From Patescibacteria group bacterium (GTDB lineage: Bacteria > Patescibacteriota > Minisyncoccia > Minisyncoccales > UBA5738): DNA of 57,119 bases. The notes below the pieces were generated by a model that saw only the letters and a program-made list of their open reading frames with translations, had not been told where the DNA came from and made no database searches. Below are positions 3,611-55,428 of this stretch, one piece after another (within the stretch, counting starts at the first letter, position 1; each line of letters opens with the position of its first letter). The stretch spans positions 1-57,119 of the forward strand of contig JAKLGH010000008.1 of NCBI GenBank assembly GCA_022710775.1, written 5' to 3'. A program made the translations under genes and the position numbers.

Positions 3611-3931
3611 ATGGACAAAAAAATTATTGCCATTGTAATTGTCGTTAGCGCGGCGATCGGAAGTTGCGTTTATGCCCAGGTTCCCGAAGTGCCCAAGCCG
3701 GTTTGCGTGCCGGTGCACCAGGACGGAATTGATATTCCTTGCCCCGGTGAAAACAGCCCCGCCCCAGCCGGCGAAAACAATCCAATCGAGGAATCGGGCA
3801 AAAGCCCAACTTATCAAAACCTGCTGCAAAATTTCTATCTCGCGGTCAATGACGGCATTGAAAGCCTGGCCGAAGCTATTCGCCAAGGCTTTGACAGCGC
3901 CGGGAATTTTTTAAAAAGTATCAAATTTTAA
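3611..3931 (+). CDS. Small exported protein of unknown function
   Basis: This 106-aa protein starts with a clear signal peptide (MDKKIIAIVIVVSAAIGSCVYAQ), with likely cleavage after VYA. The mature part is proline-rich (PEVPKPVCVPV, PAPAGENNP) and ends in an amphipathic helix (NDGIESLAEAIRQGFDSAGNFLKSI). No known family is recognised. ATG 3611 was preferred over the upstream ATG because it starts the signal peptide and suits the TATAAT at 3599. A terminator follows directly. Confidence 0.7.
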   Translation: MDKKIIAIVIVVSAAIGSCVYAQVPEVPKPVCVPVHQDGIDIPCPGENSPAPAGENNPIEESGKSPTYQNLLQNFYLAVNDGIESLAEAIRQGFDSAGNFLKSIKF

Positions 3932-6796: not shown

Positions 6797-9067
6797 ATGT
6801 TTCTTTCCGACAACGAAAAGCGCGACATAATAAAATACATTGAGGTAGGCAAACCTTTGCCGGATAAATACCGGTTTTTGTTGTTTGAGGATAAGCGCGA
6901 AGTAGAGCTGGTATGGAACGGAAAAACTAATGAAGTAACTAATGTGGTTTTGCCGTTTCAGACGATTGAACAGGTTGATGAGCCGCGCAGTGAAAAAGAA
7001 ATCAAAATGCAAAGATCGCTCTTTGATATTGATTCGCGAGGACGCCAGCTTAAAGGCTGGACCAATAAGTTGATCTGGGGTGACAACAAACTGATACTTT
7101 CGAGCTTGAAAAACGGGCCAATGCGAGAAGAAATTGAAAAACAAGGCGGCATTAAACTGATCTATATCGATCCGCCTTTTGATGTGGGCGCAGATTTTTC
7201 AATGAATATTGAAATCGGAAACGAAGAATTTACAAAAAAACCGAATGTTTTGGAGGAACTGGCTTATCGCGATACTTGGGGTAAGGGCGCGGACAGTTTT
7301 ATTGCGATGATTTACGAGCGCCTTTCCCTGATGCGCGACCTATTGGCTGATGACGGCAGTATTTATGTCCATTGCGATTATAGGCTTACACATTACGTGC
7401 GCGCTGTATTGGATGAGTTGTTTGATAAAAATAGATTCTTGAGTGAAATTATCTGGCAAGGTGCCGTTGGTGATACTTCCGCTAAAAATAAAAAATATAT
7501 TAAATCGCATGATACTATTTTTTTATATTCAAAGCTAGATGAATATATTTGGAATGATATTTTTCAAGCATACGGCGAGGCTAGTAATAAGCTTTATCGA
7601 TACGAAGATGAACAAGGTAGATATCGGTTGGTGCCGGTAGACAATCCAGGCGGTGGTGGATATATTTATAGCTTCGGTAAAGGAGAAAAACTGCCAGCAA
7701 ATGGTTATCGGATGCCAGAGTCAACGGCTAATCAATGGCTCAATGATGGAATTTTAATTGTTGAAAATGGTAAAGTGCCAAGTAGGAAGCAATATATGAA
7801 CGAAAGTGGTGTACGGTGTAAGGATGTTTGGGACGACATCTCATCATCGGTTGCCAAAGAATATCCTACGCAAAAACCAGAAGCATTACTTGAAAGAATC
7901 ATTAAAGCATCAACGAATGAAAATGATATTGTTGCAGATTTCTTTTGCGGATCGGGGACAACTTTGGCGGTGGCCGAAAAGTTAGGGAGAAAGTGGATCG
8001 GTTCGGACTTGGGTAAATTTGCGATCCACACCACGCGCAAGCGAATGATCGGGGTTCAGCGGCAGATGAAAAAAGACGGCAAAAATTTTCGCGCGTTTGA
8101 AATTTTAAACCTCGGAAAATATGAACGCCAGCATTATATTGGCATAAATCCGAATTTGCGCGACGAAGAAAAACAACAACAGATTGTACAACGCGAAAAG
8201 GATTTTATTTCATTGGTTTTATCAGCTTATAAAGCCGAAGCGTTTGATGGTTTCAAAACATTCCACGGCAAGAAAAGCTCGCGGTTGGTGGCAATTGGGC
8301 CAATAAATTTGCCAGTATCACGTTTATTTGTCGAAGAAGTTATCAATGAATGCTTGGAAAAGAAAATTACCAAAGCCGATATTTTGGCGTTTGAATTTGA
8401 GATGGGATTGTTTCCGAATATCCAAGAGGAGGCGAAAAGCAAAGGCATTGATCTGGCGTTAAAATATATTCCGCGCGATGTGTTTGACAAACGGGCGATT
8501 GAGAAAAACCAAGTGGTATTCCACGATGTTTCTTATATTGAAATAAAACCGATTATCAAAAAAAACACTTTAGCGATTGAGTTGGCCGATTTTTCGGTAT
8601 TCTATAACCAAGATTCGATTAAAGAAGTTGAGGAAAATTTGAAGAATGGTGGTAAAAAATTGATTGTCGAAAACGGCCAGATTATCAAAATTTCCAAAGA
8701 CAAAGACGGCATAATCGAGAAAGAAAATTTAGCCAAGGAATGGACCGACTGGATCGATTACTGGGCGGTTGATTTTGATTTTGAAAGCAAAAAAGAGATT
8801 ATTCGAGTACCGGTGAAGGAATCGGTGCAACCGAAGCTTGACGGATCAGCCGACCCCCATCAAGCAAAGTTACCGGATTTTGAGGAAAGATGGACCGGCG
8901 ATTATATTTTTGAAAACGAATGGCAATCTTTCCGCACCAAAAAAGACCGAAATCTTGAATTGATAAGCGTTGCCAAAGAAATGCCGGCCGGAAAACACAA
9001 AGTGGCGATTAAGGTCGTTGATATTTTCGGTAACGATACGTTGAAGATAATTGAGTTAAGAATATGA
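6797..9067 (+). CDS. mod: Type III restriction-modification DNA adenine methyltransferase (Mod)
   Basis: This 756-aa enzyme transfers a methyl group from S-adenosylmethionine to adenine and provides target recognition. The catalytic motif DPPF (residues 125-128) precedes the SAM-binding motif [21 protein letters not shown] (near 381-400), the order of beta-class amino-methyltransferases that includes Type III Mod proteins. The region between the two motifs should be the target recognition domain. A long C-terminal part of about 330 aa follows the catalytic core. Its TGA stop overlaps the ATG of the NYN gene (ATGA), so translation is probably coupled. The Res subunit is encoded 0.7 kb downstream. 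Confidence 0.92.
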
Positions 9068-9636
9068 ACGGTGGAAATTGCAAAACAATTTTTGTTTTTA
9101 TCGACGCATCAAACCTTTGGCAGGCGCAAAAAGCGAAGGGTCGGTTTTTCGATTACGAAAAATTAACTGCTTATTTGAAGGGAAAATTTTACAGTGACAA
9201 AATCAAGGTTTTTTATTATACTGCCTATCCGGCAGACGGCACCAGATCCTACAGCATCGATAGTAAGCACAAATTTTTTACATTTCTGAAAAAAGGATTG
9301 GGATTCACGGTTGTAAAAAAAGAATTAAAAAGAATCCAAATTGCCGCTGAAAATGGGGATGCGATCAAAGAAAAGGGGAATATGGACGTTGAAATAACCA
9401 TTGATGCCTTGCATCATATCGACAAATATAATGTTGCGGTGCTATTTAGCGGCGATGCCGATTTTCTTGCTTTGGTTAGTTATTTGAAGAATCGAGGTAA
9501 AGAAGTTTATATTTTTTCATCAAAAAATAATATTTCGCAGGAATTGCGTACGGGTGGAAATGGTTATTTTGACGTGCTTGAAATAGAGGCGAATATTTGG
9601 GGTCGTGATTTAAAGTATCGTTCCCGTGATTGTTAA
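9064..9636 (+). CDS. NYN-domain (LabA/PIN-like) predicted ribonuclease within the R-M locus
   Basis: A 190-aa protein with the NYN layout: [10 protein letters not shown] at the N-terminus with the first acidic residue, [17 protein letters not shown] in the middle, and [29 protein letters not shown] near residue 120-150. The conserved Asp residues at these three points are the metal-binding site of this PIN-like nuclease superfamily. It overlaps mod by 4 bases and lies before res. A defence role (an RNase acting with the restriction system) is attractive but is inference. The protein is complete and not frameshifted. Confidence 0.85.
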
Positions 9637-9680
9637 CAAAACAACCCTCCTCGCGGAAGGTTGTTCTTGGATGTAATACC

Positions 9681-9705
9681 CTTTCAGTTATGGATAAACT
9701 GAAAG
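9681..9705 (+). promoter_or_regulatory. Perfect hairpin/dyad in the res leader region
   Basis: CTTTCAGTT (9681-9689), 7-base spacer, AACTGAAAG (9697-9705), followed by an AT-rich tract (9711-9728, TATTATATATCATAATTT) that could hold a -10 element for res. An earlier imperfect hairpin (AACAACC...GGTTGTT, about 9638-9665) could end the mod-NYN transcript. The dyad may be an operator. No T run follows it. Confidence 0.5.
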
Positions 9706-9778
9706 ACAACTATTATATATCATAATTTAGGATCCAAAGCAAGCGGTCAAGAATAACGATTTATAAATATCAGAAATT

Positions 9779-12493
9779 ATGGCACTGCACAAGGATTTTC
9801 CAACTTCGCCTTATGAAATACTTGATCCGGCAATCAGATGGTTTCCGGCTGATGAAAATTTACGCGAAAAAGGGTATGAAAAGCTTTTGCCGCCGCTTGT
9901 TGCCGAACTTCGTAAGAAAGTTACTGCTTGGCGCGCGTCCGGCTACGAAGGGTTGAGCGAAACCAGCAAAGCGTTGCTTAATTGGTGGTTTTTGACGGAT
10001 CATCCGGTTGAGAATAAAGATGGCGAATTGTCTCTATTTAGATATTATTTTTCCCAGCGTGAAGCGGTAGAAACCGTTATTTGGCTTTACGAGGTTGCGA
10101 AGTCCAGGGATAAATACGATCTTATTCGGTACGATAGCTCTGGTGCGGTTTCAGCGGGAATGTTTGACGAGGATTGGACGCGCTATGTGATTAAAATGGC
10201 AACCGGCGCGGGCAAAACCAAGGTTTTGAGCTTGATGTTGGCGTGGAGTTATTTTCATAAATTATATGAAGCGGATTCAAATTTGGCCCGCAACTTTTTA
10301 ATTATTACGCCGAATATTATCGTGCTTGATCGTATTCGCACCGATTTTAACGGATTAAAAATTTTCTTTGCCGATCCCGTTTTGCCGGATAATGGATATT
10401 GCGGCCAAAACTGGCGCGATGATTTTCAATTAACATTGCATATCCAAGATGAGATCGGCACGGTAAGAAAAACTGGAAATATTTTTTTAACGAACATACA
10501 CCGCGTTTATGAGGGCGCGACCGAAGCGGCGGGATTTGACGATCAAGATACTGCCGACTATTTCCTGGGAAAGAAACCCGCGGGCGCGACCAATGAATCA
10601 AAACTTGATCTTGGTGATATTGTCCGTACTGTGGATGAGTTGGTAATTTTAAATGATGAGGCGCACCATATCCATGATCCGCGCCTGGCGTGGTTTAAAT
10701 CCGTGGGCGATATTCACAATCGGCTGAAAATGAAAGGCGGGGCGTTATCGTTGCAAATAGATGTTACGGCAACGCCAAAGCATAATAATGGCTCGATTTT
10801 CGTGCAAACAGTGAGCGATTATCCACTGGTTGAGGCCATACATCAAAATGTGGTTAAGCACCCGGTATTGCCCGATTCCGCCAGCCGCGCCAAGCTTCAA
10901 GAGCATAAATCATCAAATTATACCGAAAAATACAAAGATTATATCCATCTTGGGTATTTAGAATGGCAAAAGGTTTACGAAGAACACAAAAAGCTCGGCA
11001 AAAAAGCAGTGCTGTTTGTGATGACCGATGATACGAAAAATTGCGATGATGTGGCTCAATACCTTGAAAACACCTATCAGGATTTGAAAGGATCGGTTTT
11101 AGTAATTCATACGAAAAATAACGGCGAAATTTCCGAAAGCGCAAGCGGTAAAAAAGAAGAAGAATTGAAAGAATTGCGCCAAGCCGCTAATGCAATCGAT
11201 TCGATGGAAAGCCCGCATAAAGTTATTGTTTCAGTGTTGATGTTAAAAGAGGGTTGGGATGTCCGCAACGTAACGACAATTATTGGTTTGCGTCCCTATG
11301 GAAAAAACCAAAAGCAAAGAAGTGATATTTTGCCGGAACAAACGCTTGGCCGCGGTTTGCGGCGAATGTACCGCGACCCGGATTTGCCGGAGTTTGTCAG
11401 TGTTGTTGGAACAGATGCTTTTATGGATTTTGTGGAATCGATCAAAAGTGAAGGAGTCGAGCTCGAACATCGCAAGATGGGAGAAGGTTCGGGGCCGAAA
11501 TCGCCTATTGTAGTTGAAATAGATCGGGAAAATTTAAAAAAAGATATAGAGCAATTGGATATTGAAATACCGGTATTAACGCCTCGAATATACCGAGAAT
11601 ATAAAAATCTTTCGGAATTAGTGCCAGTGAATTTTGATTATAAGAAAATCGAGCTTAAAGAGTTTAGCGAAGAAGAAAAGCGGGAAATTGTTTTCCGCGA
11701 CATTGCCAGTGGAGAGATCACGCATAAAACCGAGTTGGACAGCAATTTTATTCCAAATTACCAAAGCGCAATCGGTTATTTTGCGCAGGTAATCATGAAA
11801 GAACTCCGTCTGGTTAGCGGTTACGATATTCTTTACGGTAAAGTAAAAGAATTTATCCAGAATTATTTATTTAACAACCCAATAGCCTTGGATAACCTTA
11901 ATTCGCTTCGCAATCTTTCAGAAATCGAAGCCTCAAGAACTGTTATCGAAACATTCAAGAAAGAAATCAATAAATTAACAGTACTTGATAAAGGCGAAGC
12001 TGAAATCCGCGATTATATTAAGATTAGCAAAAGTCGTCCGTTTGTGGTTAAAGATCAGGGATATATCGTACCCAAGAAGAGCATATTCAATAAAGTTGTC
12101 GGCGATAGCCATTTTGAGCTTGAATTCGCCAGCTTTCTTGAAAATTGCGAGAACATAATCTCATACGTTAAAAACTATTTTGCCGTCCATTTTAAGATTG
12201 ATTATAAAAATGCCGATGGCAATATCTCTGATTATTACCCGGATTTTATCGTAAAGATCTCGCCAAAAGAATATTACATCGTAGAAATAAAGGGCCGGGA
12301 GGATTTAGACGATATAGAAAAGATAAAACGGCTTGAGCAATGGTGTACGGATGTAAACATAAATCAAAAGAAAGCCAAATATCAGATGTTATACATCAGA
12401 CAGGAGGATTGGGAAAGGCAGTCCCAAAAACCAAAGAATTTTGGAGATTTAGTAAGAACATTTAGCGGCATGAGAACCTCACCAAGTAAATAA
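9779..12493 (+). CDS. res: Type III restriction enzyme, Res subunit (helicase-nuclease)
   Basis: A 904-aa SF2 translocase that works with Mod to cleave unmethylated DNA. Walker A is seen as ATGAGKTKVLS (near residue 141), the DEAH box as LNDEAHHIHD (near 293), and motif VI as LGRGLRRMYRD (near 523). A PD-(D/E)xK nuclease occupies the C-terminus: DYYPDFIVKI...YYIVEIKGRED. Length is close to that of EcoP15I Res (about 970 aa). The upstream dyad suggests that res can be transcribed separately from mod. No Shine-Dalgarno is seen. Confidence 0.92.
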   Translation: MALHKDFPTSPYEILDPAIRWFPADENLREKGYEKLLPPLVAELRKKVTAWRASGYEGLSETSKALLNWWFLTDHPVENKDGELSLFRYYFSQREAVETVIWLYEVAKSRDKYDLIRYDSSGAVSAGMFDEDWTRYVIKMATGAGKTKVLSLMLAWSYFHKLYEADSNLARNFLIITPNIIVLDRIRTDFNGLKIFFADPVLPDNGYCGQNWRDDFQLTLHIQDEIGTVRKTGNIFLTNIHRVYEGATEAAGFDDQDTADYFLGKKPAGATNESKLDLGDIVRTVDELVILNDEAHHIHDPRLAWFKSVGDIHNRLKMKGGALSLQIDVTATPKHNNGSIFVQTVSDYPLVEAIHQNVVKHPVLPDSASRAKLQEHKSSNYTEKYKDYIHLGYLEWQKVYEEHKKLGKKAVLFVMTDDTKNCDDVAQYLENTYQDLKGSVLVIHTKNNGEISESASGKKEEELKELRQAANAIDSMESPHKVIVSVLMLKEGWDVRNVTTIIGLRPYGKNQKQRSDILPEQTLGRGLRRMYRDPDLPEFVSVVGTDAFMDFVESIKSEGVELEHRKMGEGSGPKSPIVVEIDRENLKKDIEQLDIEIPVLTPRIYREYKNLSELVPVNFDYKKIELKEFSEEEKREIVFRDIASGEITHKTELDSNFIPNYQSAIGYFAQVIMKELRLVSGYDILYGKVKEFIQNYLFNNPIALDNLNSLRNLSEIEASRTVIETFKKEINKLTVLDKGEAEIRDYIKISKSRPFVVKDQGYIVPKKSIFNKVVGDSHFELEFASFLENCENIISYVKNYFAVHFKIDYKNADGNISDYYPDFIVKISPKEYYIVEIKGREDLDDIEKIKRLEQWCTDVNINQKKAKYQMLYIRQEDWERQSQKPKNFGDLVRTFSGMRTSPSK

Positions 12494-44346: not shown

Positions 44347-45597
44347 ATGAATCATTTTTTGTTTTCGAAAAAAAACGTTTTGGCCGCGGCCGCGGCAGCC
44401 GGTTCACTCTCGCTGGTCTGCATTCTTGGCACAGTGCTTGCCGCCTGGAATGATCCAAATTCATTTCCGCCCAACGATAACGTTGAGGCGCCGATCAATG
44501 TTTCTTCGTCCAGCCAGACCAAGGCCGGCAACTTTAGCGTCGGCGGCGGGCTCGACTATTGGATTACCAAAGACGGAGACAGTTTCGTCCTGCAAAATGA
44601 CGCCGGAGCCGACAAATTAATTATCGGGCAGGATGGAAACATGACGGTTAACGGCCGGATAAAAATCACCGGAGGCTCGCCGGGAAACAATAAAGTCCTG
44701 GTATCCGACATTAACGGTCTGGCCGCTTGGCAAGCGCTGCCGGTGACCTTGCCGGCCGGGGCTTCGGGCCAAACCCTCCGCCACGACGGCACCGGCTGGA
44801 TTGGCAGCGTCGTTCTTTATAATGACGGTACCAATATCGGGATCGGAACCTCGGCTCCCGGATCCAAGCTTGAGGTGGCTGGCCAGATCAAAATTACCGG
44901 CGGAACCCCGGGTTTAAACAAGCTTCTGGTATCCGATGCTTCCGGCTTGGCTTCTTGGAAAACCGCGGCGGATGTCGGAATCAGCGGATCGCTGCCAGCC
45001 GGTGCCAACGGCCAAACGCTTAGGCATAACGGTACCGATTGGATCGCCAATAGCGTTATCTCCAACGATGGAACCAATGTGGGCATTGGAACAAATTCCC
45101 CGGCGGGAAAATTGGATATAAATTCGGCGGACGCTTTATTCGTGTTGGGGCAGAACGTACTTTCCCATGTTTTCGCGGGCAGCACTTATCTTAAGGCTCC
45201 CAGCGGACAAACGATCGCTTTCCAGATACCCAGCGGCACGACCGTCGCTTCGATCGACTCAACGGGAATTTCGGCCCCGGCTTTTTATTACACCTCCGAC
45301 AGAAGATTAAAGAATAACATCCGTCCGATCGCGGAAAGCTTGGCTAAAATCCAGGAACTTGACGGAGTGTATTTCAATTGGGTCGCAGACCAATCTCCTT
45401 CGATCGGCCTGATCGCCCAAGACGTCGAGAAAATATTCCCGGAGGCGGTTGCCACAAACCCGGAAACAGGTTTAAAATCGATCGATTACGGAAAATTGAT
45501 CGCTCCCCTTATCGAGGCGGTAAAAACTCAGCAATCGCAAATTCAGGAACTGAAACAAGAGATCGATGATCTTAAAAACAGCGCCAATTGCCAGTAA
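44347..45597 (+). CDS. Exported fibre-like surface protein with S74 intramolecular chaperone domain
   Basis: A 416-aa protein. Signal peptide (LAAAAAAGSLSLVCILGTVLAA), then the stalk module WNDPN...PPNDNVEAPINV with repeated GLDYWITKDGDSFVLQNDAGADKLI, ITGGSPGNNKVLVSD and NDGTNIGIGT segments. The C-terminus is a Peptidase_S74 autoprocessing chaperone: YTSDRRLKNNI keeps the Ser317 and Lys322 dyad at the known +5 spacing, and a coiled coil (KTQQSQIQELKQEIDDLKNS) ends the protein. S74 domains trimerise phage tail fibres and some bacterial fibres and then cleave themselves off. The stalk is shared with the 52047 and 53791 proteins. Confidence 0.88.
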   Translation: MNHFLFSKKNVLAAAAAAGSLSLVCILGTVLAAWNDPNSFPPNDNVEAPINVSSSSQTKAGNFSVGGGLDYWITKDGDSFVLQNDAGADKLIIGQDGNMTVNGRIKITGGSPGNNKVLVSDINGLAAWQALPVTLPAGASGQTLRHDGTGWIGSVVLYNDGTNIGIGTSAPGSKLEVAGQIKITGGTPGLNKLLVSDASGLASWKTAADVGISGSLPAGANGQTLRHNGTDWIANSVISNDGTNVGIGTNSPAGKLDINSADALFVLGQNVLSHVFAGSTYLKAPSGQTIAFQIPSGTTVASIDSTGISAPAFYYTSDRRLKNNIRPIAESLAKIQELDGVYFNWVADQSPSIGLIAQDVEKIFPEAVATNPETGLKSIDYGKLIAPLIEAVKTQQSQIQELKQEIDDLKNSANCQ

Positions 45598-45602
45598 AAA
45601 CC

Positions 45603-46259
45603 ATGAAACTGTTTTTTTTGCGTAAAAAAAACAAGTGGACCTCGCGGCGCATGGCAATTCTAGCGTTAATTGTTTTAATAATTTTATTGTTGGCGGGATC
45701 ATACTTCTATCATAAGCAAATAGCTTCCGCGCCCTTAGACGATGAAATTGAACCGGCCGATACGGCGATACTTGATCGCGGCGCTTCTGAATTGGCGGAT
45801 AAACAGGAACGTGAATTCAACGCTCTTAAGGAAGATCTTGATTCTCCGGAAAAAGTTGCCGCTTATATCAAAGATAATTTTGCGATTACCACAGACAGCA
45901 GCCAGACTGCCCTGGCGCCAAAAGAACTTTTTATAAAAAATTCGGGCGGACCGCAGGATATTGCCGTATTCACGGCTTTTCTTCTGGATTGGAACGGCTA
46001 CGAAGCCGGCGTTCTGGAATATGCCTGGTTGGAAAACGGACAAAAAAAATACTACGCAGTCGCGGTTTTCAGGGATGGCGATACGCCAAAATACCTGATT
46101 GCGACTCCGGCTAAGATCGACCTTATAGCGCACGGCTGGTCATTTAAAGACTTGATCCAAAAAGAAGAAGCGCGAACGGGCATTAAAATTGAAGAATATG
46201 CGTTTTTTGAACCTGGCCAAATCAACCTCATAACAAATGATTGGGCTAAAAATCAGTGA
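45603..46259 (+). CDS. Membrane-anchored transglutaminase-like protein lacking the catalytic Cys
   Basis: 218 aa with one N-terminal membrane segment (ILALIVLIILLLAGSYFYH) and an extracytoplasmic domain. SPEKVAAYIKDNFAI... followed by GGPQDIAVFTAFLLDWNGYEAGVLEYAW resembles the core helix of transglutaminase-like proteins, whose usual G-x-C-x-D here reads GGPQD, with Pro in place of Cys. It is probably a non-catalytic binding or structural domain. It starts 5 bases after the S74 protein gene and overlaps the next gene region, so the three are likely one operon. Confidence 0.65.
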   Translation: MKLFFLRKKNKWTSRRMAILALIVLIILLLAGSYFYHKQIASAPLDDEIEPADTAILDRGASELADKQEREFNALKEDLDSPEKVAAYIKDNFAITTDSSQTALAPKELFIKNSGGPQDIAVFTAFLLDWNGYEAGVLEYAWLENGQKKYYAVAVFRDGDTPKYLIATPAKIDLIAHGWSFKDLIQKEEARTGIKIEEYAFFEPGQINLITNDWAKNQ

Positions 46260-46261
46260 TT

Positions 46262-47899
46262 ATGAAAAAAACGCTATTTCTAACATCAATCATTGTTGTT
46301 CTGGGTATCATTTCCGGATCTGATGCCCTTACCTCTTCTTCTTACCGAGCCAACCAGGCGTCAACCGTAACGGTCGACGAATGGAGCGAATGCCGCCTGG
46401 TCACCAACCAGCCCGCGGCCAAGGATACCTTTGTCCCCACCAATACCGCCCTGGAATGGTCGGAATTCCGCATCCATTACCCCAGCCACATTTCCCTTGA
46501 CGCATGCAACAGAACCCTCGCCGTGGCTATGGCCGGCACGGGTGCCGGCACGGTAACCAGCAGTCCGGCGGGTATTGATTGCGGCACAACCTGCTCGGCA
46601 ACATTCAATATTAGCGATACAGTAACTCTCACCGCCACTCCCGCGGTCGGTTCCACTTTTACAGGCTGGTCGGGCGGCGACTGTTCGGGAACCGGAGCCT
46701 GTACGGTCACATTGGCTAATGATACCGATGTTACGGCCACATTCACGGTGAATATCTACAAATTAACCGTAATAAAATCCGGTAACGGCTCTGGCGTTGT
46801 TTCTTCCGGCCCCGCGGGTATTGATTGCGGCGCAACGTGTTTGGCAACTTATGCTCACGGGACCAGTATAACGCTAACCAACAATGATGATGTCGGTTCC
46901 CTGATTACCGGCTGGTCGGGCGGCGGCTGTTCGGGTACAACTCCCTGCGTTTTCACTATTACCGGCGACACCACCGTTACCGCCACGTTCACCTTGACAA
47001 ATTTTACTCTTACGGTCACTAAATCCGGCTTTGGCACAGGCACGGTGACCAGCAATCCGGCCGGCATCAATTGCGGTACCGACTGCTTGGAAATCTACCC
47101 TGCTCACGCTCCCGTCACGCTTACGGCCTCTCCGGGCGCTGGTTCGGTATTCGCCCGCTGGTCCGGCGCTTGCACCGGGGGAAACAACTGCGTAATAAAA
47201 ATGGACTCTGATTTATCGGTAAACGCGTATTTTAGTTACCCTGATTGCAAAGTTACGCCCCCGGGCGGAAAGCGTATTTTCACCACCAGCTGGAGAGGAA
47301 TGTACAAAGGCAATGAAGTGCGCACCTATGCCATAGCCGATAATTATTGCCAAACTTTGGCTACCGATGCCGGGCTACCCGGAACTTACAAAGCATTGAT
47401 TTATCTGGGCGGACGCCTGCCCGAAACGGTTTTGCCTCTCGGATTTGCTTTTTATAACGGGGAAGATAACGGCAGTTACTGCGACTGGCACCTAGTGGCT
47501 AACAGCCGGGCTGACATGTGGGTCTTGCCTCTTAAAAGTTCGATCCAATACGACGAATTTGGACACGATACTGCTGTTATTTATGTTTGGACTAATTTTA
47601 AATCCCATGGCGATGGAACCTATGAAACAATAGATTATTGCGATTCGGTGGATACCGATCCTTGTCCAACCAGTTCTTGGCCCTGCACCTTGGCTGTCAT
47701 TAAATTTTCGGGGCTTTCACGATGGGCCAACTGCGTTCAATCATATTATGGTTATTCAGAAAAAACTAACGTAGAATGGAGCGGAAAGCTTTGGTGGGCA
47801 CAAAATGCCTGGTCTACCAAATATCCGGGTTGCGTATGGCCAAGCATAATGGATCACTGTAATGCATTAATTAAAGGTTTGTATTGCGTTCAACAATAA
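46262..47899 (+). CDS. Exported surface protein: three InlB-like B-repeats plus DUF1554 domain
   Basis: 545 aa. A signal peptide (KKTLFLTSIIVVLGIISGSDA) precedes a module with YRANQASTVTVDEWSECRLV and ALEWSEFRIHYPSHISL. Three repeats of about 80 aa follow, each with G-T-G-x-G-x-V-x-S-x-P-A-G-I-[DN]-C, F-x-G-W-S-G and T-V-T-A-T-F patterns and four Cys, as in divergent InlB B-repeats. The C-terminal domain begins GGKRIFTTSWRGMYKG and ends GLYCVQQ, matching DUF1554 of Leptospira surface proteins. The start is ATG 46262, just after the previous stop. Confidence 0.88.
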   Translation: MKKTLFLTSIIVVLGIISGSDALTSSSYRANQASTVTVDEWSECRLVTNQPAAKDTFVPTNTALEWSEFRIHYPSHISLDACNRTLAVAMAGTGAGTVTSSPAGIDCGTTCSATFNISDTVTLTATPAVGSTFTGWSGGDCSGTGACTVTLANDTDVTATFTVNIYKLTVIKSGNGSGVVSSGPAGIDCGATCLATYAHGTSITLTNNDDVGSLITGWSGGGCSGTTPCVFTITGDTTVTATFTLTNFTLTVTKSGFGTGTVTSNPAGINCGTDCLEIYPAHAPVTLTASPGAGSVFARWSGACTGGNNCVIKMDSDLSVNAYFSYPDCKVTPPGGKRIFTTSWRGMYKGNEVRTYAIADNYCQTLATDAGLPGTYKALIYLGGRLPETVLPLGFAFYNGEDNGSYCDWHLVANSRADMWVLPLKSSIQYDEFGHDTAVIYVWTNFKSHGDGTYETIDYCDSVDTDPCPTSSWPCTLAVIKFSGLSRWANCVQSYYGYSEKTNVEWSGKLWWAQNAWSTKYPGCVWPSIMDHCNALIKGLYCVQQ

Positions 47900-47934
47900 C
47901 GAAAGATTTAATCAGATTATGACGGCAAAACTAT

Positions 47935-49719
47935 ATGGTTAAAAACGCGTTAAAATTAATTTTTCTTGCTTTGTTGTTTGTTCTAGTGTTTCCCGCCGAC
48001 TTAAATGCCGCCACTTCCTACCGGGCCAACCAGGCCTCAACCATAACGGTCAACGAATGGAGCGAATGCCGTTTGGTTACCAACCAGGCCGCGGCTAAAG
48101 ACACGTTCGTACCAACGAATACCGCTCTGGAATGGTCGGAGTTCCGCATCCATTATCCAAGCCATATCAGCCTGGCTGCCTGTTCTTTGTCGCTCTCTGT
48201 TTCTAAGGCCGGCACGGGCGCCGGCACGGTAACCAGCAGTCCGGCGGGCATCAACTGCGGGGCGGCTTGCAGCGCGAACTTCGCGGCCGGAGCGACCATC
48301 ACCCTCACCGCTGTGCCCAATGCCAGCTCAACTTTTTCCGGCTGGTCGGGCGGAGGATGTTCGGGAACTGGAATATGCACGGTAATGCTTAGTTCAAATA
48401 CGACCGTAACCGCAACGTTCAATATTATCACCTACGCGCTCTCTGTTTCTAAGGCCGGCACGGGTGCCGGCACGGTAACCAGCAGTCCGGCGGGCATTAA
48501 CTGCGGGGCGGCATGCAGCGCTAACTACAGCTCGGGCGCGTCGGTAACGCTTACTGCGGCTGCCGATGTAGGCTCCGCTTTCGTTGGCTGGTCGGGCGCC
48601 GGATGTTCCGGAACCGGGACGTGCACGGTGACAATGTCGGCCAACGAAACGGTGACAGCGACGTTTAATGTTGCTAATTACACGCTTACGGTAACGAAAT
48701 CGGGTCTGGGCGCCGGCACGGTAACCAGCAGTCCGGCGGGCATTAACTGCGGGGCGGCTTGCAATTCGATATTTGGCGGAGGCACTTCTGTTACCCTCAC
48801 CGCAACACCGAATGCCAGTTCCAAGTTCGCCGGCTGGTCGGGCGGAGGATGTTCGGGAACTGGGACGTGCACGGTGGCGTTGAATGCCGATACCGCCATT
48901 GACGCCAAATTCAATCCCGCCACTTGCACGGTCGTGCCCGGAGGAGGAAAAAGGGTTTTTGTCACCTCCGCGACATACAAGGGCGCCTCGGTCCGCACTA
49001 ATGCCGCCGCTAATACTCTTTGCCAAAACTTAGCTTCCGCTGCCGGCCTTTCAGGCACGTATAAAGCCATGATTTACCTGAATGCCGCAACGCCCGATAC
49101 CATTATTCCGGCCGGAAAACCGATATATAACGGCGGGCTCACGCTAAACGGATGCGAGTGGAACCTGGTCGGCAACGATCGAACCGATATGTTTAACTGT
49201 GATAACTGCCAGCCAGCCGTAGCCGACGGATTTGAGCCTTATTTGCGCAATCCCATCAAATACGATGAAACGGGAACCGAACGGTCTTATTCGGTCTGGA
49301 CCAATATCAAACCGTGGAACGGCAGTTGGGATATTTCACTGGTTCAGCTCTTATATAATTCGACGGCCGCCTGCAACCACACGCCCGACAGATTGTTTTC
49401 TTGCTGTTCTTATGCAACTTGCCTGCCCTGCATGACTCACATTGATATAGTACCCGCTAAAAATGGTCCGTCGATAGACTGCACTAAAACATCAACTTGG
49501 GACTATTTTATCAGAAACAGTGACGGCAGCGTGAAATCCCTGGTGGTTGCGGGAGACAGCCAATCGGCTACCCAAAGATGGAGCGGCGACGCTCAAACCG
49601 GTAAAACCTATTTTATGGGCACGGGTTATACGTTGGCAAGCGGCTGCGCCCGCGCGATCGATAAAACCTATTCAATATGCGATAACATGAATATGGGCCT
49701 TTACTGTTTCCAGCAATAA
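47935..49719 (+). CDS. Exported surface protein: three InlB-like B-repeats plus DUF1554 domain (paralogue)
   Basis: 594 aa with the same architecture as the 46262 protein. The YRANQAST...EWSECRLVTNQ module is almost unchanged. Its three B-repeats are more alike among themselves (KAGTGAGTVTSSPAGINCG occurs in the first two, KSGLGAGTVTSSPAGINCG in the third), and their DNA is nearly identical in part (GCCGGCACGGTAACCAGCAG recurs). The DUF1554-type head is longer, with extra Cys (DNCQPAV, FSCCSYATCLPC), and ends GLYCFQQ. Confidence 0.88.
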   Translation: MVKNALKLIFLALLFVLVFPADLNAATSYRANQASTITVNEWSECRLVTNQAAAKDTFVPTNTALEWSEFRIHYPSHISLAACSLSLSVSKAGTGAGTVTSSPAGINCGAACSANFAAGATITLTAVPNASSTFSGWSGGGCSGTGICTVMLSSNTTVTATFNIITYALSVSKAGTGAGTVTSSPAGINCGAACSANYSSGASVTLTAAADVGSAFVGWSGAGCSGTGTCTVTMSANETVTATFNVANYTLTVTKSGLGAGTVTSSPAGINCGAACNSIFGGGTSVTLTATPNASSKFAGWSGGGCSGTGTCTVALNADTAIDAKFNPATCTVVPGGGKRVFVTSATYKGASVRTNAAANTLCQNLASAAGLSGTYKAMIYLNAATPDTIIPAGKPIYNGGLTLNGCEWNLVGNDRTDMFNCDNCQPAVADGFEPYLRNPIKYDETGTERSYSVWTNIKPWNGSWDISLVQLLYNSTAACNHTPDRLFSCCSYATCLPCMTHIDIVPAKNGPSIDCTKTSTWDYFIRNSDGSVKSLVVAGDSQSATQRWSGDAQTGKTYFMGTGYTLASGCARAIDKTYSICDNMNMGLYCFQQ

Positions 49720-49809
49720 TCGCGCCAAATAAAACTGCCTTTAGACGATTATGTTCAACGGCATAAACGCAACTTTAAATTTTAAACTTAAAAAACCTGG
49801 AATTAACTT

Positions 49810-50823
49810 ATGAAAGAAGCGTATCTGTATGAAAAAACGGCTAAAAAAAGGGTAAAATGCCTGAATTGCGCCCATTATTGCGAAATGGCTCCGGGAATCC
49901 GCGGAGCCTGCGGCGTCCGGGAAAATGTCAACGGGAAGCTTTACGCCCTCAATTACGGCCGGACTGTCGCCGTACAGGTGGATCCGGTTGAAAAAAAACC
50001 GCTATTCCATTTCCTGCCCGGTTCGCTTACCTTATCGATCGCGGCCGCCGGCTGCAATTTTACCTGTGTAAACTGCCAGAACTTTGAAATTTCCCAAACT
50101 CCGAAAAAGATGAAGGATATTCCGGGACAGGAAGTTTCGCCGCAGGAAATAATCGAACTGGCCAAAAGCCTTAACGTGCCCAGCATATCATATACTTACG
50201 TGGAACCGACGATTTTTTCGGATTACGCTTTGGATGTAATGAAGCTGGCTAAAGAGCAAAAAATCAGGAATATCTGGGTAACGAACGGATTTCTTTCAAA
50301 AGAAGCGTTCGATCTAGTTTCCCCGTTTCTAGATGCCGCCAATGTCGATATCAAGGGCTTTACGGAAGAATTTTACCAAAAAAATTGCGGCGGACGGCTC
50401 GAGCCGGTACTCGAAACCTGCAAGAGAATGAAGCGCGCCGGCATTTGGATAGAAATAACCACGCTGGTCATTCCAACCTTAAACGATTCGCGTTTTGTCC
50501 TCGAAGACATTGCCAGGTTCATCGCTCAAGATCTTGGTAAAGACGTACCTTGGCATGTTACCCAATTCAGCGGGCTGATATCGTGGAAACTGAAAAGCTT
50601 GCCCCAAACCCCGGCTAAGGTTCTGAAAATGGCTTATGATATCGGTAAAGCCGCCGGTTTAAAATATGTTTATACCGGCAATATTCCTGGGCTAGCCTAC
50701 GAAAATACGATGTGCCCCGCGTGCGGTGAAATCTGCGTGGAACGCGAAGGTTATATCATCAGCCGCCACGATAAAAACGGCAAGTGCGGAAATTGCGGCG
50801 AAGAACTGAATATTGTCGATTAA
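49810..50823 (+). CDS. amrS: AmmeMemoRadiSam system radical SAM enzyme
   Basis: A 337-aa radical SAM protein. A Cys pair region precedes the core (CLNCAHYCEM, GACGVR); the cluster motif is AAGCNFTCVNCQNFEISQ (C-x3-C-x2-C, near residue 80). TYVEPTIFSDYALDVMKLA and NVDIKGFTEEFY are family-typical, and a zinc-ribbon-like tail (CPACGEICVERE... CGNCGEEL) ends the protein. The natural substrate of AmmeMemoRadiSam systems is unknown. The partner encoded downstream begins 79 bases after the stop. Confidence 0.92.
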   Translation: MKEAYLYEKTAKKRVKCLNCAHYCEMAPGIRGACGVRENVNGKLYALNYGRTVAVQVDPVEKKPLFHFLPGSLTLSIAAAGCNFTCVNCQNFEISQTPKKMKDIPGQEVSPQEIIELAKSLNVPSISYTYVEPTIFSDYALDVMKLAKEQKIRNIWVTNGFLSKEAFDLVSPFLDAANVDIKGFTEEFYQKNCGGRLEPVLETCKRMKRAGIWIEITTLVIPTLNDSRFVLEDIARFIAQDLGKDVPWHVTQFSGLISWKLKSLPQTPAKVLKMAYDIGKAAGLKYVYTGNIPGLAYENTMCPACGEICVEREGYIISRHDKNGKCGNCGEELNIVD

Positions 50824-50902
50824 CCCCTTTCCTCGCTTTTCTTGCTCTTCTTGCTTTCTCGCTTTCTTGCTTTTCCGGCTTTCTCGCTTATTATCTAATC
50901 CA
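50824..50902 (+). other. Pyrimidine-rich low-complexity spacer
   Basis: The spacer consists of CTTGCTTTCTCGCTTTCTTG-type near-repeats on the plus strand. It separates the radical SAM and Memo/LigB-like genes and encodes nothing convincing. Confidence 0.6.
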
Positions 50903-51526
50903 ATGATCTCTTTCGCCTGTATTTCCCCCCATCCGCCTCTGCTTCTGCCAGATATCGGTTCAAAAACTGACCGTTCGGCCGTGGCTAAAACCATTGAGTC
51001 GCTGGAAAAATTAGGAAGCCTATTGGCGGCCATCCAACCGCAAACGATCGTCATCTCTTCTCCCCACCCGGACTGGGGCTTTAATGTGCCGTTGCATTTT
51101 TTGGCAAACGGGATTTCCCCCGAAGTGATAACGGTTCTTTGCGGGCTGGAACCGCCCGATGAATATTTCAAAAAAGGAGCCGAATTTTATTTAAAACAAC
51201 TAAAAAATCTCGCGGATAAAATCGCTTTGATCGCGTCCGGCGACTTGTCGCACCGCCTCAAGGTCGACGGTCCCTACGGATTCCACGAGCAAGGACCCTT
51301 GTTCGACAAAAAACTGGTCGCGAGCCTAAAGAATAGCGACGTTAAAACCATCATCGGCCTGGAAAATGAATTTCCTGAGGCTGGAGAATGCGGCTTGCGT
51401 TCTTTTTGTTTTTTGCTAGGCATCCTCGAAGGAGCGAAAATCGGCTGGCAGGCCGACATTCTTTCTTACGAGAGCCCTTTTGGCGTCGGCTACCTGGTCG
51501 CCAACTTTGATCTTAAAACTCAATAA
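50903..51526 (+). CDS. LigB/Memo-like extradiol-dioxygenase-superfamily protein of the AmmeMemoRadiSam pair
   Basis: 207 aa. FACISPHPPLLLPDIGSK at the N-terminus, VISSPHPDWGFNVPLHF, IASGDLSHRLKVDGPYGFHEQG and FPEAGECGLRSFCFLLGIL carry the His/Glu positions of the LigB fold as used in AmmeMemoRadiSam system proteins. ATG 50903 starts directly at the first motif; the longer frame translates the pyrimidine-rich spacer. The third family component, AMMECR1, is absent both as a fusion and as a neighbour. Confidence 0.82.
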   Translation: MISFACISPHPPLLLPDIGSKTDRSAVAKTIESLEKLGSLLAAIQPQTIVISSPHPDWGFNVPLHFLANGISPEVITVLCGLEPPDEYFKKGAEFYLKQLKNLADKIALIASGDLSHRLKVDGPYGFHEQGPLFDKKLVASLKNSDVKTIIGLENEFPEAGECGLRSFCFLLGILEGAKIGWQADILSYESPFGVGYLVANFDLKTQ

Positions 51527-51527
51527 C

Positions 51528-51842
51528 ATGAAAATTACAATTAAAGGGCCGTTAAAAGACAATATCAATAACCTGGCGCGAAAGCTTGGATACCAATTCC
51601 AGCGGGCAAAAAAAGACGAAAATGGCATAGACGAGCTGGAATTCTCGCGCGTTATGAGCGCGTCCGGCTATCCTCGCTTTCATCTTTTCTTGAAATCCGA
51701 GGGTGAAAATCTGGTCTTCACTCTTCATTTGGATCAAAAAAAACCAAGCTATTCCGGGTCGTCGGCCCATGCCGGAGAATATAGCGGAACGATCGTCGAA
51801 GAAGAAGCGAAAAGGATAAGAACGCTAATGGAAGGAACTTAG
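51528..51842 (+). CDS. Small conserved-looking protein of unknown function
   Basis: 104 aa (MKITIKGPLKDNINNLARKLGY..., ELEFSRVMSASGYPRFHLFL, SYSGSSAHAGEYSGTIVEEE). Alternating hydrophobic strands and two His in SSAHAGEY suggest a compact alpha/beta fold. Its ATG lies one base after the stop of the LigB-like gene, so it is part of the same operon. No family is recognised. The following 200 bases (51843-52046) hold no gene. Confidence 0.7.
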   Translation: MKITIKGPLKDNINNLARKLGYQFQRAKKDENGIDELEFSRVMSASGYPRFHLFLKSEGENLVFTLHLDQKKPSYSGSSAHAGEYSGTIVEEEAKRIRTLMEGT

Positions 51843-52046
51843 AAAAACGGAGTGTCAATTCGGCTTAAGTTCGCTTGATCGCACCGAACCTGTGCTATTA
51901 TTGGCCGGGTTTATTTAATCGGAGCAAAACTGTTGCAATGGATATATTTGCTAGTAGCGGATAAATTGGATAAAATGAACCAATATATTTAAAAACGAAT
52001 GCATTTAACTTCGTAAATATTATTTTTTCATTTTTTCAAAATTTAT

Positions 52047-53780
52047 ATGGAATATTTCAATAGTTTTAAAAATCCGCTAAACGTATTAATAATATTAATG
52101 TTTGCAGCGTTTCTGGCTGTTTCTTCCGAAGTCCTGGCTTGGAACAACCCCAATACCGACCCGCCCAACGACAATGTTGATCCTCCCATCAACGTATCGG
52201 GAGACCCGCAGAAAAAATCCGGCGATCTTAACATCGGCGGCGGGCTTGATTATTGGATTACCAAGGACGGAGACAGCTTTGCCCTTAAAAACGACGCCGG
52301 AGCCGATAAATTCATTGTAGGCCAGGACGGCAATATCATCGTCAACGGACAAATAAAGATCACGGGCGGAACGCCGGGATTGAACAAACTGCTGGTTTCC
52401 GACGCCGCCGGATTGGCGTCCTGGAAGACGGCGGCGGACGCGGGTATCACAGGCTCTTTGCCGGCCGGAATGTTGGGCCAAACCTTGAGGCATGACGGAT
52501 TTAGCTGGATAGCCAACAGCGTCATCTTCAATAACGGTACGGATGTCGGAATCGGAACAAACGCGCCCGCAGCCAAGCTTGATATCAATGGTCAGATTAT
52601 GATCCGCGGCGGCTTGCCGGGAGCCGGCAAGGTTTTGGTTTCCGACGCAAACGGCCTGGCTTCTTGGGAAGCGCCCTCTGCCGGAGTGATTGCTTCATCC
52701 TGCTCCGCGGGAACTGTCGTTACCGGCATCGACTCCGGCGGTAATCTGGTTTGCGGACGGCAGATAATTTCGGGAGCCTGCGCCGGGAATAAGTTCGTTA
52801 AAGGCATCGATGGCGCGGGAAATATCATTTGCGACGATCTCCCGCCGATTTGCGCCGCTTCAACTTGCACTTCGCTTGGTTATAACTGCGGAAATTGGCC
52901 CGATGGTTGCGGCAACACGATTAGCTGCGGAAACTGCGTGAGTCCTCAAATCTGCGCTTCCGGCGTATGCGCCGCCAGCTGCACCCCGAAAACTTGCGCC
53001 CAGCAGGGTTTTGCCTGTGGCAGCCAGACTGACGGGTGCGGAAACGCTATTAATTGCGGTAATTGCGCGTCCGGCCAAACCTGCGTAAGCGGTACTTGCA
53101 AAGACGAGGACTGCAAAGGCAATAATTTAGGGGGTAAAAGAATTTTCGTCACAAGTGCGGGCTACAGCGGTTCCCAAGTCCGCAACGACGCGGCCGCCGA
53201 TACGCTCTGCCAAACCCATGCAACTACCGCCGGTTTGCCCGGCACCTATAAAGCCTTGATTTACTTGGGTAGCCGCCTGCCCGAAACAGCACTGCCTCTG
53301 GGCTATGCTTTTTATAACGGTCAATATACCGGCAGCTATTGCGACTGGAAATTGGTGGCTGGCAGCCGGGCATTGATGTGGTCGCTGCCGCTGGCCAATC
53401 CCATCCGTTACGACGAATTCGGCAACAGCGTAGTCCTTAATAGCGTTTGGACCAACTTTAAATCGGGCGGCAGCGGAACATACAACGTTATTGCGAGCTG
53501 TGGTTCCGGCTTTTGGGGCGATCAATGTCCTCCAAGTGGAACACTCGCATGCTGGCCCTGCCGGGCAGGAGCAATCCAGTGTGGCGGTACTTGGTGCTAC
53601 ACCCCTTGCGTTACCGCCTATTATGGAAATCCAATGTCTACTAACGTTGCCTGGAGCGGAACACTGTATAGCGTCACAGGATCAGCTCAAACTGATATCA
53701 TTGCCGCAAAAAATCAGGCCACATCCATACTGAACACCTGCCAAGCGTTCCAGCGCGCCCTCTACTGCGTGGAGCAATAA
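52047..53780 (+). CDS. Exported surface protein: stalk module, Cys-rich knots and DUF1554 head
   Basis: 577 aa. Signal peptide (VLIILMFAAFLAVSSEVLA), then the same stalk as the 44347 protein (WNNPNTDPPNDNVDPPINV, GLDYWITKDGDSFALKND, GTPGLNKLLVSD). Two Cys-rich repeats of the type C-x4-C-x3-G-[FY]-x-CG...DGCGN...CGNC follow (near residues 270-350). A DUF1554 head begins GGKRIFVTSAGYSGSQVR and ends ALYCVEQ. Bases 52159-52636 are repeated at 53900-54377 without a difference that I could see. Confidence 0.88.
   Translation: MEYFNSFKNPLNVLIILMFAAFLAVSSEVLAWNNPNTDPPNDNVDPPINVSGDPQKKSGDLNIGGGLDYWITKDGDSFALKNDAGADKFIVGQDGNIIVNGQIKITGGTPGLNKLLVSDAAGLASWKTAADAGITGSLPAGMLGQTLRHDGFSWIANSVIFNNGTDVGIGTNAPAAKLDINGQIMIRGGLPGAGKVLVSDANGLASWEAPSAGVIASSCSAGTVVTGIDSGGNLVCGRQIISGACAGNKFVKGIDGAGNIICDDLPPICAASTCTSLGYNCGNWPDGCGNTISCGNCVSPQICASGVCAASCTPKTCAQQGFACGSQTDGCGNAINCGNCASGQTCVSGTCKDEDCKGNNLGGKRIFVTSAGYSGSQVRNDAAADTLCQTHATTAGLPGTYKALIYLGSRLPETALPLGYAFYNGQYTGSYCDWKLVAGSRALMWSLPLANPIRYDEFGNSVVLNSVWTNFKSGGSGTYNVIASCGSGFWGDQCPPSGTLACWPCRAGAIQCGGTWCYTPCVTAYYGNPMSTNVAWSGTLYSVTGSAQTDIIAAKNQATSILNTCQAFQRALYCVEQ
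52159..52636 (+). repeat. 478-bp identical tract, copy 1 (copy 2 at 53900-54377)
   Basis: Line-by-line comparison shows no mismatch between 52159-52636 and 53900-54377 (offset 1741). Both copies encode the stalk module. Sequences diverge at once outside the tract, at the signal peptide side and at the Cys-rich side. A second shared tract of about 75 bases lies near 53080-53150 / 54745-54810. Confidence 0.92.
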
Positions 53781-53790
53781 TATTATTAAA

Positions 53791-55428
53791 ATGCATAACT
53801 TATCCACTGCTAAAAACATTAAAGCGGCAAGCCTCTTGATCATTACAGCTTTAATCGCTTATGTTTCCAGCGTCCTGGCTTGGAATAACCCAAATACAAA
53901 CCCGCCCAACGACAATGTTGATCCTCCCATCAACGTATCGGGAGACCCGCAGAAAAAATCCGGCGATCTTAACATCGGCGGCGGGCTTGATTATTGGATT
54001 ACCAAGGACGGAGACAGCTTTGCCCTTAAAAACGACGCCGGAGCCGATAAATTCATTGTAGGCCAGGACGGCAATATCATCGTCAACGGACAAATAAAGA
54101 TCACGGGCGGAACGCCGGGATTGAACAAACTGCTGGTTTCCGACGCCGCCGGATTGGCGTCCTGGAAGACGGCGGCGGACGCGGGTATCACAGGCTCTTT
54201 GCCGGCCGGAATGTTGGGCCAAACCTTGAGGCATGACGGATTTAGCTGGATAGCCAACAGCGTCATCTTCAATAACGGTACGGATGTCGGAATCGGAACA
54301 AACGCGCCCGCAGCCAAGCTTGATATCAATGGTCAGATTATGATCCGCGGCGGCTTGCCGGGAGCCGGCAAGGTTTTAACTTCAAACGCAGTCGGGCTCG
54401 CGAGCTGGGAAACACCGGCATCAGGAACCGCAAGCGGTTCCTGCCCGGCTGGCGCGGTTGTAACCGGTATTGATGTTTCCGGAAAAATAATATGCACGCC
54501 TCTTTCTTCGCTTTGCACTCCAACCACTTGCTCAAATTTGGGCTATAACTGCGGCTCCTGGCCTGACGGGTGCGGCAATACCCTTGACTGCGGCACCTGC
54601 CCGACCGGCCAAACCTGCGCAAGCGGTACCTGCGCTACCTCTTGCACACCCAAGACTTGCGCCCAGCAGGGCTTTACCTGCGGCAGCCAAAACGATACGT
54701 GCGGAGGATCGCTTAACTGCGGCACCTGCCCGACCGGCCAAACCTGCGTAAGCGGTACTTGCAAAGACGAGGACTGCAAAGGCAATAATTTAGGGGGTAA
54801 AAGAATTTTTGTCACAAGTGCCGGATATACAGGGCACCAAGTTAGAACTAACGCGGATGCGGACGCTATATGCCAGGATCATGCCAGCACGGCTGGCCTT
54901 ACCGGCACCTACAAAGCTTTGGTCTATTTGGATGAAGATCTGCCAGAAACCGTTTTGCCTCTGGGTTATGCCTTCTATAATGGTCAATATACCGGAAGCT
55001 ACTGCAATTGGCGGGAGGTGGCTGGCAGCCGAGCGCTTATGTGGTCGTTGCCGTTAAAAAACCCAATCCTCTACGATGAATACGGCAACATCGCGGTTCT
55101 TCAAAGCGTTTGGACAAATTTCATATCGGGGGGCAGCGGAACTTATACCGTTCTCGACATCTGCGGATGGGCGTCTCAAGCCTTTGGATTAGCCTGGCCT
55201 TGCCTTCCGGGAGCTACGGGCTCGAATGTAACGTCTAATTATAAAGTGTATCCATGCGTCACGGCCTATTACGGAGATCCGACAAAAACCGATGTAAATT
55301 GGAGTGGTATTTTTTATCACACTACGGCTGGTCTATGTACTGACGTTAATTGTGCGTGGAATGAAATGTCCTCTATGACAGAAACCTGCCAGAACTTCCA
55401 GCGCGCACTCTACTGCGTGCAACAATAA
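53791..55428 (+). CDS. Exported surface protein: stalk module, Cys-rich knots and DUF1554 head (paralogue)
   Basis: 545 aa. The signal peptide differs from that of the 52047 protein (LLIITALIAYVSSVLA), but the stalk is identical over the 478-bp tract. The Cys-rich part has repeats with CGTCPTGQTCASGTC and CTPKTCAQQGFTCGSQ. The DUF1554 head begins GGKRIFVTSAGYTGHQVR and ends ALYCVQQ, clearly diverged from its neighbour. It starts 10 bases after the previous stop and has no Shine-Dalgarno. Confidence 0.88.
   Translation: MHNLSTAKNIKAASLLIITALIAYVSSVLAWNNPNTNPPNDNVDPPINVSGDPQKKSGDLNIGGGLDYWITKDGDSFALKNDAGADKFIVGQDGNIIVNGQIKITGGTPGLNKLLVSDAAGLASWKTAADAGITGSLPAGMLGQTLRHDGFSWIANSVIFNNGTDVGIGTNAPAAKLDINGQIMIRGGLPGAGKVLTSNAVGLASWETPASGTASGSCPAGAVVTGIDVSGKIICTPLSSLCTPTTCSNLGYNCGSWPDGCGNTLDCGTCPTGQTCASGTCATSCTPKTCAQQGFTCGSQNDTCGGSLNCGTCPTGQTCVSGTCKDEDCKGNNLGGKRIFVTSAGYTGHQVRTNADADAICQDHASTAGLTGTYKALVYLDEDLPETVLPLGYAFYNGQYTGSYCNWREVAGSRALMWSLPLKNPILYDEYGNIAVLQSVWTNFISGGSGTYTVLDICGWASQAFGLAWPCLPGATGSNVTSNYKVYPCVTAYYGDPTKTDVNWSGIFYHTTAGLCTDVNCAWNEMSSMTETCQNFQRALYCVQQ
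53900..54377 (+). repeat. 478-bp identical tract, copy 2
   Basis: Partner of 52159-52636. Identity this long between flanking diverged segments points to a recent duplication or gene conversion. Confidence 0.92.

Follow-up and report, generated by a model that had tools for sequence, protein, structure and literature searches.

A gene cluster in a Paceibacterota-type bacterium of the Candidate Phyla Radiation (CPR) probably encodes exported mosaic fibre adhesins that resemble the MAT fibres of Bdellovibrio and whose stalks have undergone gene conversion; we put the probability of this reading at about 70%. The cluster occupies positions 44347–55428 of a 57,119-nucleotide stretch from Patescibacteria group bacterium (contig JAKLGH010000008.1; hereafter the window), which is the entire contig C32 of a draft genome, G000 (1.16 Mb, 98.9% complete, 33 contigs). 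An original prediction made from the sequence alone had placed surface proteins with exchanged stalks and heads here, and both the coordinates and the content that it gave for the cluster hold. Five genes, termed A, B, D, E and F, encode putative exported surface proteins, and all features of the cluster given below lie on the + strand. A (44347–45597), E (52047–53780) and F (53791–55428) have in common a W-N-x-P-N...PPNDNV start and a common stalk (A and F are 59% identical), and this one stalk family bears, as had been proposed, two kinds of tip: an S74 tip in A and, in E and F, the head that had been labelled DUF1554 and is endostatin-like in its predicted fold. B (46262–47899) and D (47935–49719) consist of an N-terminal module, three InlB-type B-repeats and an endostatin-like head.

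Neighbouring stalk genes share identical tracts

E and F, each built from a stalk, a Cys-rich linker and an endostatin-like head, coincide exactly in two places. Tract 1 lies in the stalk (E 52159–52636; F 53900–54377) and extends over 478 bp with zero mismatches, confirming as exact an identity that had been described as a tract with no visible difference between diverged flanks. Counted by codon, it contains no change at 111.7 synonymous and 362 non-synonymous sites. Tract 2, predicted as about 75 bp around the Cys-rich/head junction, proved to be an exact 76-bp run (E 53071–53146; F 54734–54809), and the sequence separating the two tracts aligns at ~60–80% at best. Outside tract 1, the proportion of synonymous sites that differ between E and F (pS) was 0.72 in the linker and 0.78 in the head, close to saturation, and 0.51 in the short N-terminus. 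Permuting the variable sites 100,000 times yielded runs of at most 62 bp for the whole gene and 63 bp for linker plus head, and thus both observed tracts (478 and 76 bp) exceed chance. The run-length permutations and the pS contrast exclude a simple tandem duplication whose copies diverged uniformly. There is good support for gene conversion, or segmental copying, within the genome, and the module shuffling or gene conversion originally suggested draws its support from the drop of pS to zero within the tract, from the repetition of the pattern in a second genome of the genus, from further gene pairs and from the tree of the heads.

Local homogenization recurs in related genomes

The same-genus genome G001 carries a syntenic cluster split between contigs C18 and C34, which share an exact 141-bp overlap at their ends. 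Its counterparts of E and F, the stalk genes s1 (7933–8760) and s2 (8825 onwards), lie between the LigB neighbourhood and Sua5 and are alike in the same stalk segment as E and F, with a pS of 0.24 in the stalk versus 0.83–0.87 in the flanks. Yet the stalks of s1 and s2 are saturated when compared with those of E and F (pS 0.74–0.76), indicating that the E/F identity arose within the genome and not through codon constraint, and that stalks became alike separately in each genome. This synonymous saturation between species also led us to reject the idea that the identity stems from nucleotide-level constraint on the stalk, for example from an RNA or DNA element. Identical architecture with equal divergence in all strains, which the original prediction had named as the outcome that would speak against it, is contradicted by this comparison.

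Five further pairs in four genomes (G000, G001, G002 and G003) displayed the same pattern. One G001 pair has a common 170-bp N-terminal module at 95% identity (pS 0.05) joined to different heads, one of them in a DUF2341 protein, and the S74 gene of G001 shows the same local dip in divergence with the G001 gene at 3644. A pair in G002 is 94% identical over 388 bp (pS 0.00–0.10) with unrelated C-termini; since G002 is a single 1.16-Mb contig, a general assembly artefact is unlikely. Local homogenization of the same shape was found in a G003 pair and in a second tandem pair of stalk-protein genes in the window's own genome, which adjoins recA on another contig (C23; L055:3113-5850). The members of this last pair have sub-threshold similarity to Peptidase_G2, another self-cleaving fibre chaperone, at their C-termini, and one contains a DUF2341 insert.

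Endostatin-like heads and their reshuffling

An AlphaFold2 model of the head of F (54775–55425) reached a pLDDT of 92.2 and a pTM of 0.90, and structural comparison matched it to five endostatin entries with Z scores of 14.2–15.7 (best 1dy0, Z 15.7 over 157 residues, 2.9 Å); C-type lectins and other folds came next at Z < 4 (3.9 for the next entry). Foldseek likewise linked this head to endostatin (E = 9e-4). Structure prediction, put forward with the original prediction as a check, thus gave an endostatin-like fold at a pLDDT of 92, and the label 'DUF1554 head' is sound as regards this predicted fold but not as a formal family assignment: searches with PF07588 (DUF1554) produced no match for B, D, E or F at E ≤ 1, matched 1 of 13 head homologues (E = 0.013) and, across the window's genome, picked out only another protein, below the cut-off. 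Formal Pfam membership was rejected accordingly, the heads scoring below the gathering threshold.

The heads of B (47246–47896) and D (48925–49716) show 50–55% and 41–46% amino-acid identity, respectively, to those of E (53112–53777) and F, bearing out the claim that the B-repeat proteins have heads of this same family. A tree of 13 heads joined B, which sits on B-repeats, to E and F, which sit on collar stalks, with support of 96/93, and left D outside. Grouping B with D was rejected by the approximately unbiased test (p = 0.02), as was grouping B with the G001 B-repeat head (p = 0.003), and a group of the E, F and G001 s2 heads without B had a lower likelihood (p = 0.054); these p-values are a guide, as the constrained groups were named after the tree had been seen and several branches are long. 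Because the head tree rejects co-inheritance with the B-repeat module, head and stalk have different histories, which supports a reshuffling of heads between stalk types. Most of the divergence between the E and F heads is synonymous (pS 0.78, versus 0.23 for the corresponding non-synonymous proportion, pN), a pattern suggesting that purifying selection acts on tips that are old and distinct, rather than that each head changes rapidly.

The head family occurred in 13 of 247 genomes of the order (E ≤ 1e-5), and three or four copies per genome were found only in the window's own family of genomes, where the head is also carried by a Tyr/Gly-rich protein (L042) and by other stalks. Separately, both genera of this family encode a protein that combines a KNH-like Ig domain with an endostatin/DUF1554-like domain (L054:2865-3974 and L050:4239-5336).

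DUF1554 has been linked to the endostatin-like Len adhesins of Leptospira (PMC2387172), which are reported to bind host matrix proteins and to owe their diversity to recombination (Stevenson et al. 2007, PMC2063517). The proteins described here are comparable in their predicted endostatin-like fold and in having several paralogues with evidence of recombination. Unlike the Len proteins, which are outer-surface lipoproteins of a spirochaete, they carry heads below the PF07588 cut-off on fibre or B-repeat stalks; the adhesin role of Len is a feature of Leptospira.

Stalks related to predator fibres

A profile built from six stalks found its best solved match in 8ond, the Bdellovibrio protein Bd2133 (E = 1.6e-13), followed by 8on4, 8oml and 8ol4, whose deposited name is 'cell wall surface anchor family protein' and which, judging from entry codes neighbouring that of 8ond, would also be MAT structures. 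A reversed-sequence profile used as a control matched none of the four. Sampled across the phylum, 23 of 286 genomes encoded the stalk family (E ≤ 1e-8). Alignments delimit two collar repeats in the stalk of A (44434–45267), which is followed by the C-terminal S74 domain (45295–45450; PF13884, 60.9 bits versus a cut-off of 22, E = 1.4e-16), a putative trimerisation and autoprotease domain. The sequence SDRRLK at amino acid 317 of A corresponds to the SDxxxK catalytic motif, and A matched phage tail-fibre PHROGs with E values down to 1e-32. In MAT and phage fibres, the S74 domain promotes trimerisation and cleaves itself off (Caulton et al. 2024, PMC10769870).

The likeness to the MAT fibres of Bdellovibrio bacteriovorus described in that study comprises the profile-detectable, collar-repeat β-helical stalk (Bd2133), a repertoire of both S74 and non-S74 tips with the SDxxxK motif, a C-type-lectin-fold tip as one option (Bd2740 in Bdellovibrio) and members with a common stalk and different tips (there Bd2133 and Bd1334, whose fibres are 75% identical). 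MAT proteins have about 1,000 amino acids and a conserved, β-rich domain of ~130 amino acids directly after the signal peptide; the proteins of the window have 416–577 amino acids, an N-terminus that looks different (W..P..PP..N start) and a Cys-rich linker before an endostatin-type head, and their genes are clustered and contain converted tracts that are nearly identical. Phylum and cell envelope are different as well. We propose that these proteins may work like a MAT fibre, a claim about mode of action, drawn from stalk and tips, and not about membership of the MAT family.

B and D were assigned to the InlB B-repeat family PF18998 in three stretches each (B, 69.1 bits, E = 3.3e-19; D, 88.7 bits, E = 2.5e-25; cut-off 23.6). 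The array in D (48191–48915) has a 246-bp period, and the N-terminal module of B (46338–46506; YRANQAST...EWSEFRIHYPSHISL) is 83% identical to that of D (48014–48182). They are thus like InlB-type surface proteins in their repeats and unlike them in carrying an endostatin-like tip and in that leucine-rich repeats were not found in B or D.

In other genomes, stalk genes lie beside genes that by eye look like those of type IV pili (L052:568-7475 and L049:1835-9274: pilT, pilC, pilins, a prepilin peptidase and a pilB-like ATPase), which hints at a connection between fibre and pilus.

Proposed mechanism and alternative explanations

Each protein would comprise a signal sequence for export, a cell-proximal stalk and a distal tip, projecting from the cell as a short, probably trimeric fibre with exchangeable tips. 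The collar-repeat stalk would be a relative of the trimeric β-helical fibres of the MAT proteins. One tip option, the S74 domain, would act as a trimerisation chaperone that cuts itself off; the other, a compact endostatin-like head of C-type-lectin type, probably attaches to a polymer or to a ligand on the surface of a host, partner or prey cell. Adjacent genes would swap stalk segments by RecA-dependent gene conversion, that is, segmental copying, so that stalks stay alike and heads remain old and diverse, and heads would also have moved between stalk types. RecA is encoded in all five genomes of the family, and a reverse transcriptase (PF00078) was absent from the window's genome, which is 98.9% complete; a diversity-generating retroelement was rejected as the driver on this ground. 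With RecA present and no retroelement found, homologous recombination between neighbouring stalks is the simplest agent that we can infer. The resemblance of the stalk to MAT fibres and the endostatin-like fold of the heads strengthen the case for contact with a host or partner cell, a role assigned by analogy.

The E/F identity might instead stem from a single recent partial duplication, in which the stalk segment of one gene was copied once into its neighbour, or a tandem duplicate later acquired a foreign head, and conversion did not continue. A single copying event would account equally well for one identical tract in one pair, and E and F are adjacent, 1.7 kb apart; however, this pair has two separate tracts with diverged sequence between them, the same stalk segment was independently homogenized in G001, and the pairs in G002, G003 and on C23 of G000 are of different ages, making a single event improbable. 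We consider it very unlikely that an assembly artefact, by collapse or mis-filling, rendered merely similar stalks identical. Although the genome is a draft of 33 contigs, short reads cope poorly with a 478-bp repeat, and the 141-bp overlap in G001 is typical of a k-mer break in a repeat cluster, collapse cannot create the non-identical tracts (86–95%) with the same flank pattern in other genomes, single-contig G002 included, and the 76-bp tract would need a second artefact.

That the genes are a prophage remnant encoding phage tail fibres is scarcely credible. The S74 domain matches phage tail-fibre families, and phage fibres and tailspikes with an S74 chaperone, such as the T5 L-shaped fibre and K1F endosialidase, also have collar-type repeats; the stalk repeat matches a Nocardia phage protein (40% identity over 61%), the sole phage match, seen in two Nocardia phages. 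Against this, the genes are chromosomal, their products have signal-sequence-like starts, no other phage genes lie nearby, the housekeeping neighbours are conserved in G001, and neither head nor full protein matched phage or viral contigs. A possibility that we take more seriously, while judging it unlikely, is that these are mosaic surface proteins other than contact adhesins, with heads that bind environmental polymers or a cluster that forms a coat layer. The bacterium is uncultured, folds of C-type-lectin type bind many ligands, and enzyme-like domains occur in other exported Cys-rich proteins that these genomes encode. Yet the nearest relatives of the stalk are predator–prey fibres, the Leptospira proteins that share this head fold are adhesins for host proteins, and cultivated Patescibacteria are all obligate episymbionts, according to PMC12206443.

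Several points weigh against the reading of the cluster as gene-converted fibre adhesins. If near-identical copies were merged during short-read assembly, the exact identity of E and F may be an overstatement. The G001 gene s2 has a frame break between stalk and head (L040:9700-9960), which could be a real loss, a switch or an assembly error, and decay or misassembly may accordingly affect some cluster members. Modelled as a monomer, the stalk gave a poor prediction (pLDDT 63.5), so trimerisation is proposed from homology.

In design, the cluster resembles the interchangeable prey-recognition fibres of a predator, here in ultrasmall, uncultured Patescibacteria. We offer as a speculation, more doubtful than the adhesin reading itself, that CPR bacteria run a predator-like repertoire for host recognition in which the common stalk serves as a recombination platform for trading tips between neighbours; if so, partner range could shift by gene conversion rather than by point mutation or retroelements. 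How uncultured CPR bacteria recognize partner cells is largely unknown, and the locus offers named candidates for contact proteins, together with a prediction of their tip fold, ties their sequences to Bdellovibrio fibres proven to bind prey and shows a concrete way in which such a repertoire is reshuffled. The heads could be expressed and screened against glycans or partner cells, making the question testable without culturing the bacterium. Our literature search retrieved no paper that connects CPR either with DUF1554 or with gene conversion among surface proteins.

Genomic setting

The five surface-protein genes lie between a thpR/murC side and a side with Sua5 and a GAF-domain gene, interspersed with one small membrane-anchored protein and three ordinary genes. 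The small protein (45588–46259) is conserved beside the S74 gene, also in G001 (L041 425-1096), and has faint, sub-threshold similarity to a transglutaminase-like family. The GAF-domain gene places the genome with Patescibacteria, its nearest named relatives being uncultured bacterium AM-2014-D8_bin-0821 (87%), followed by Patescibacteria group bacterium UBA6102 and Candidatus Paceibacterota bacterium STB_91 (77%). A scan of named genomes gave no match to protein F. UBA6102 and STB_91 have the flanking genes without the surface-protein cluster, which therefore looks restricted to the window's genus or lost in others.

Exported Cys-rich proteins elsewhere in these genomes (L047:4941-5429 and 7595-8077; L048, L049 and L050; L079:10771-11202) have differing enzyme-like N-termini and share a C-terminal Cys-rich module with an amphipathic tail (TRAEILxKIAxI..LIxQLIAELQKQL), which may serve these CPR bacteria as a signal for sorting or anchoring. 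Two neighbouring Cys-rich proteins in G003 are 95% identical over 489 bp in this module and tail. Within the window, positions 6797–12493 hold what resembles, by eye, a type III restriction-modification pair (DNA methylase and helicase/nuclease).

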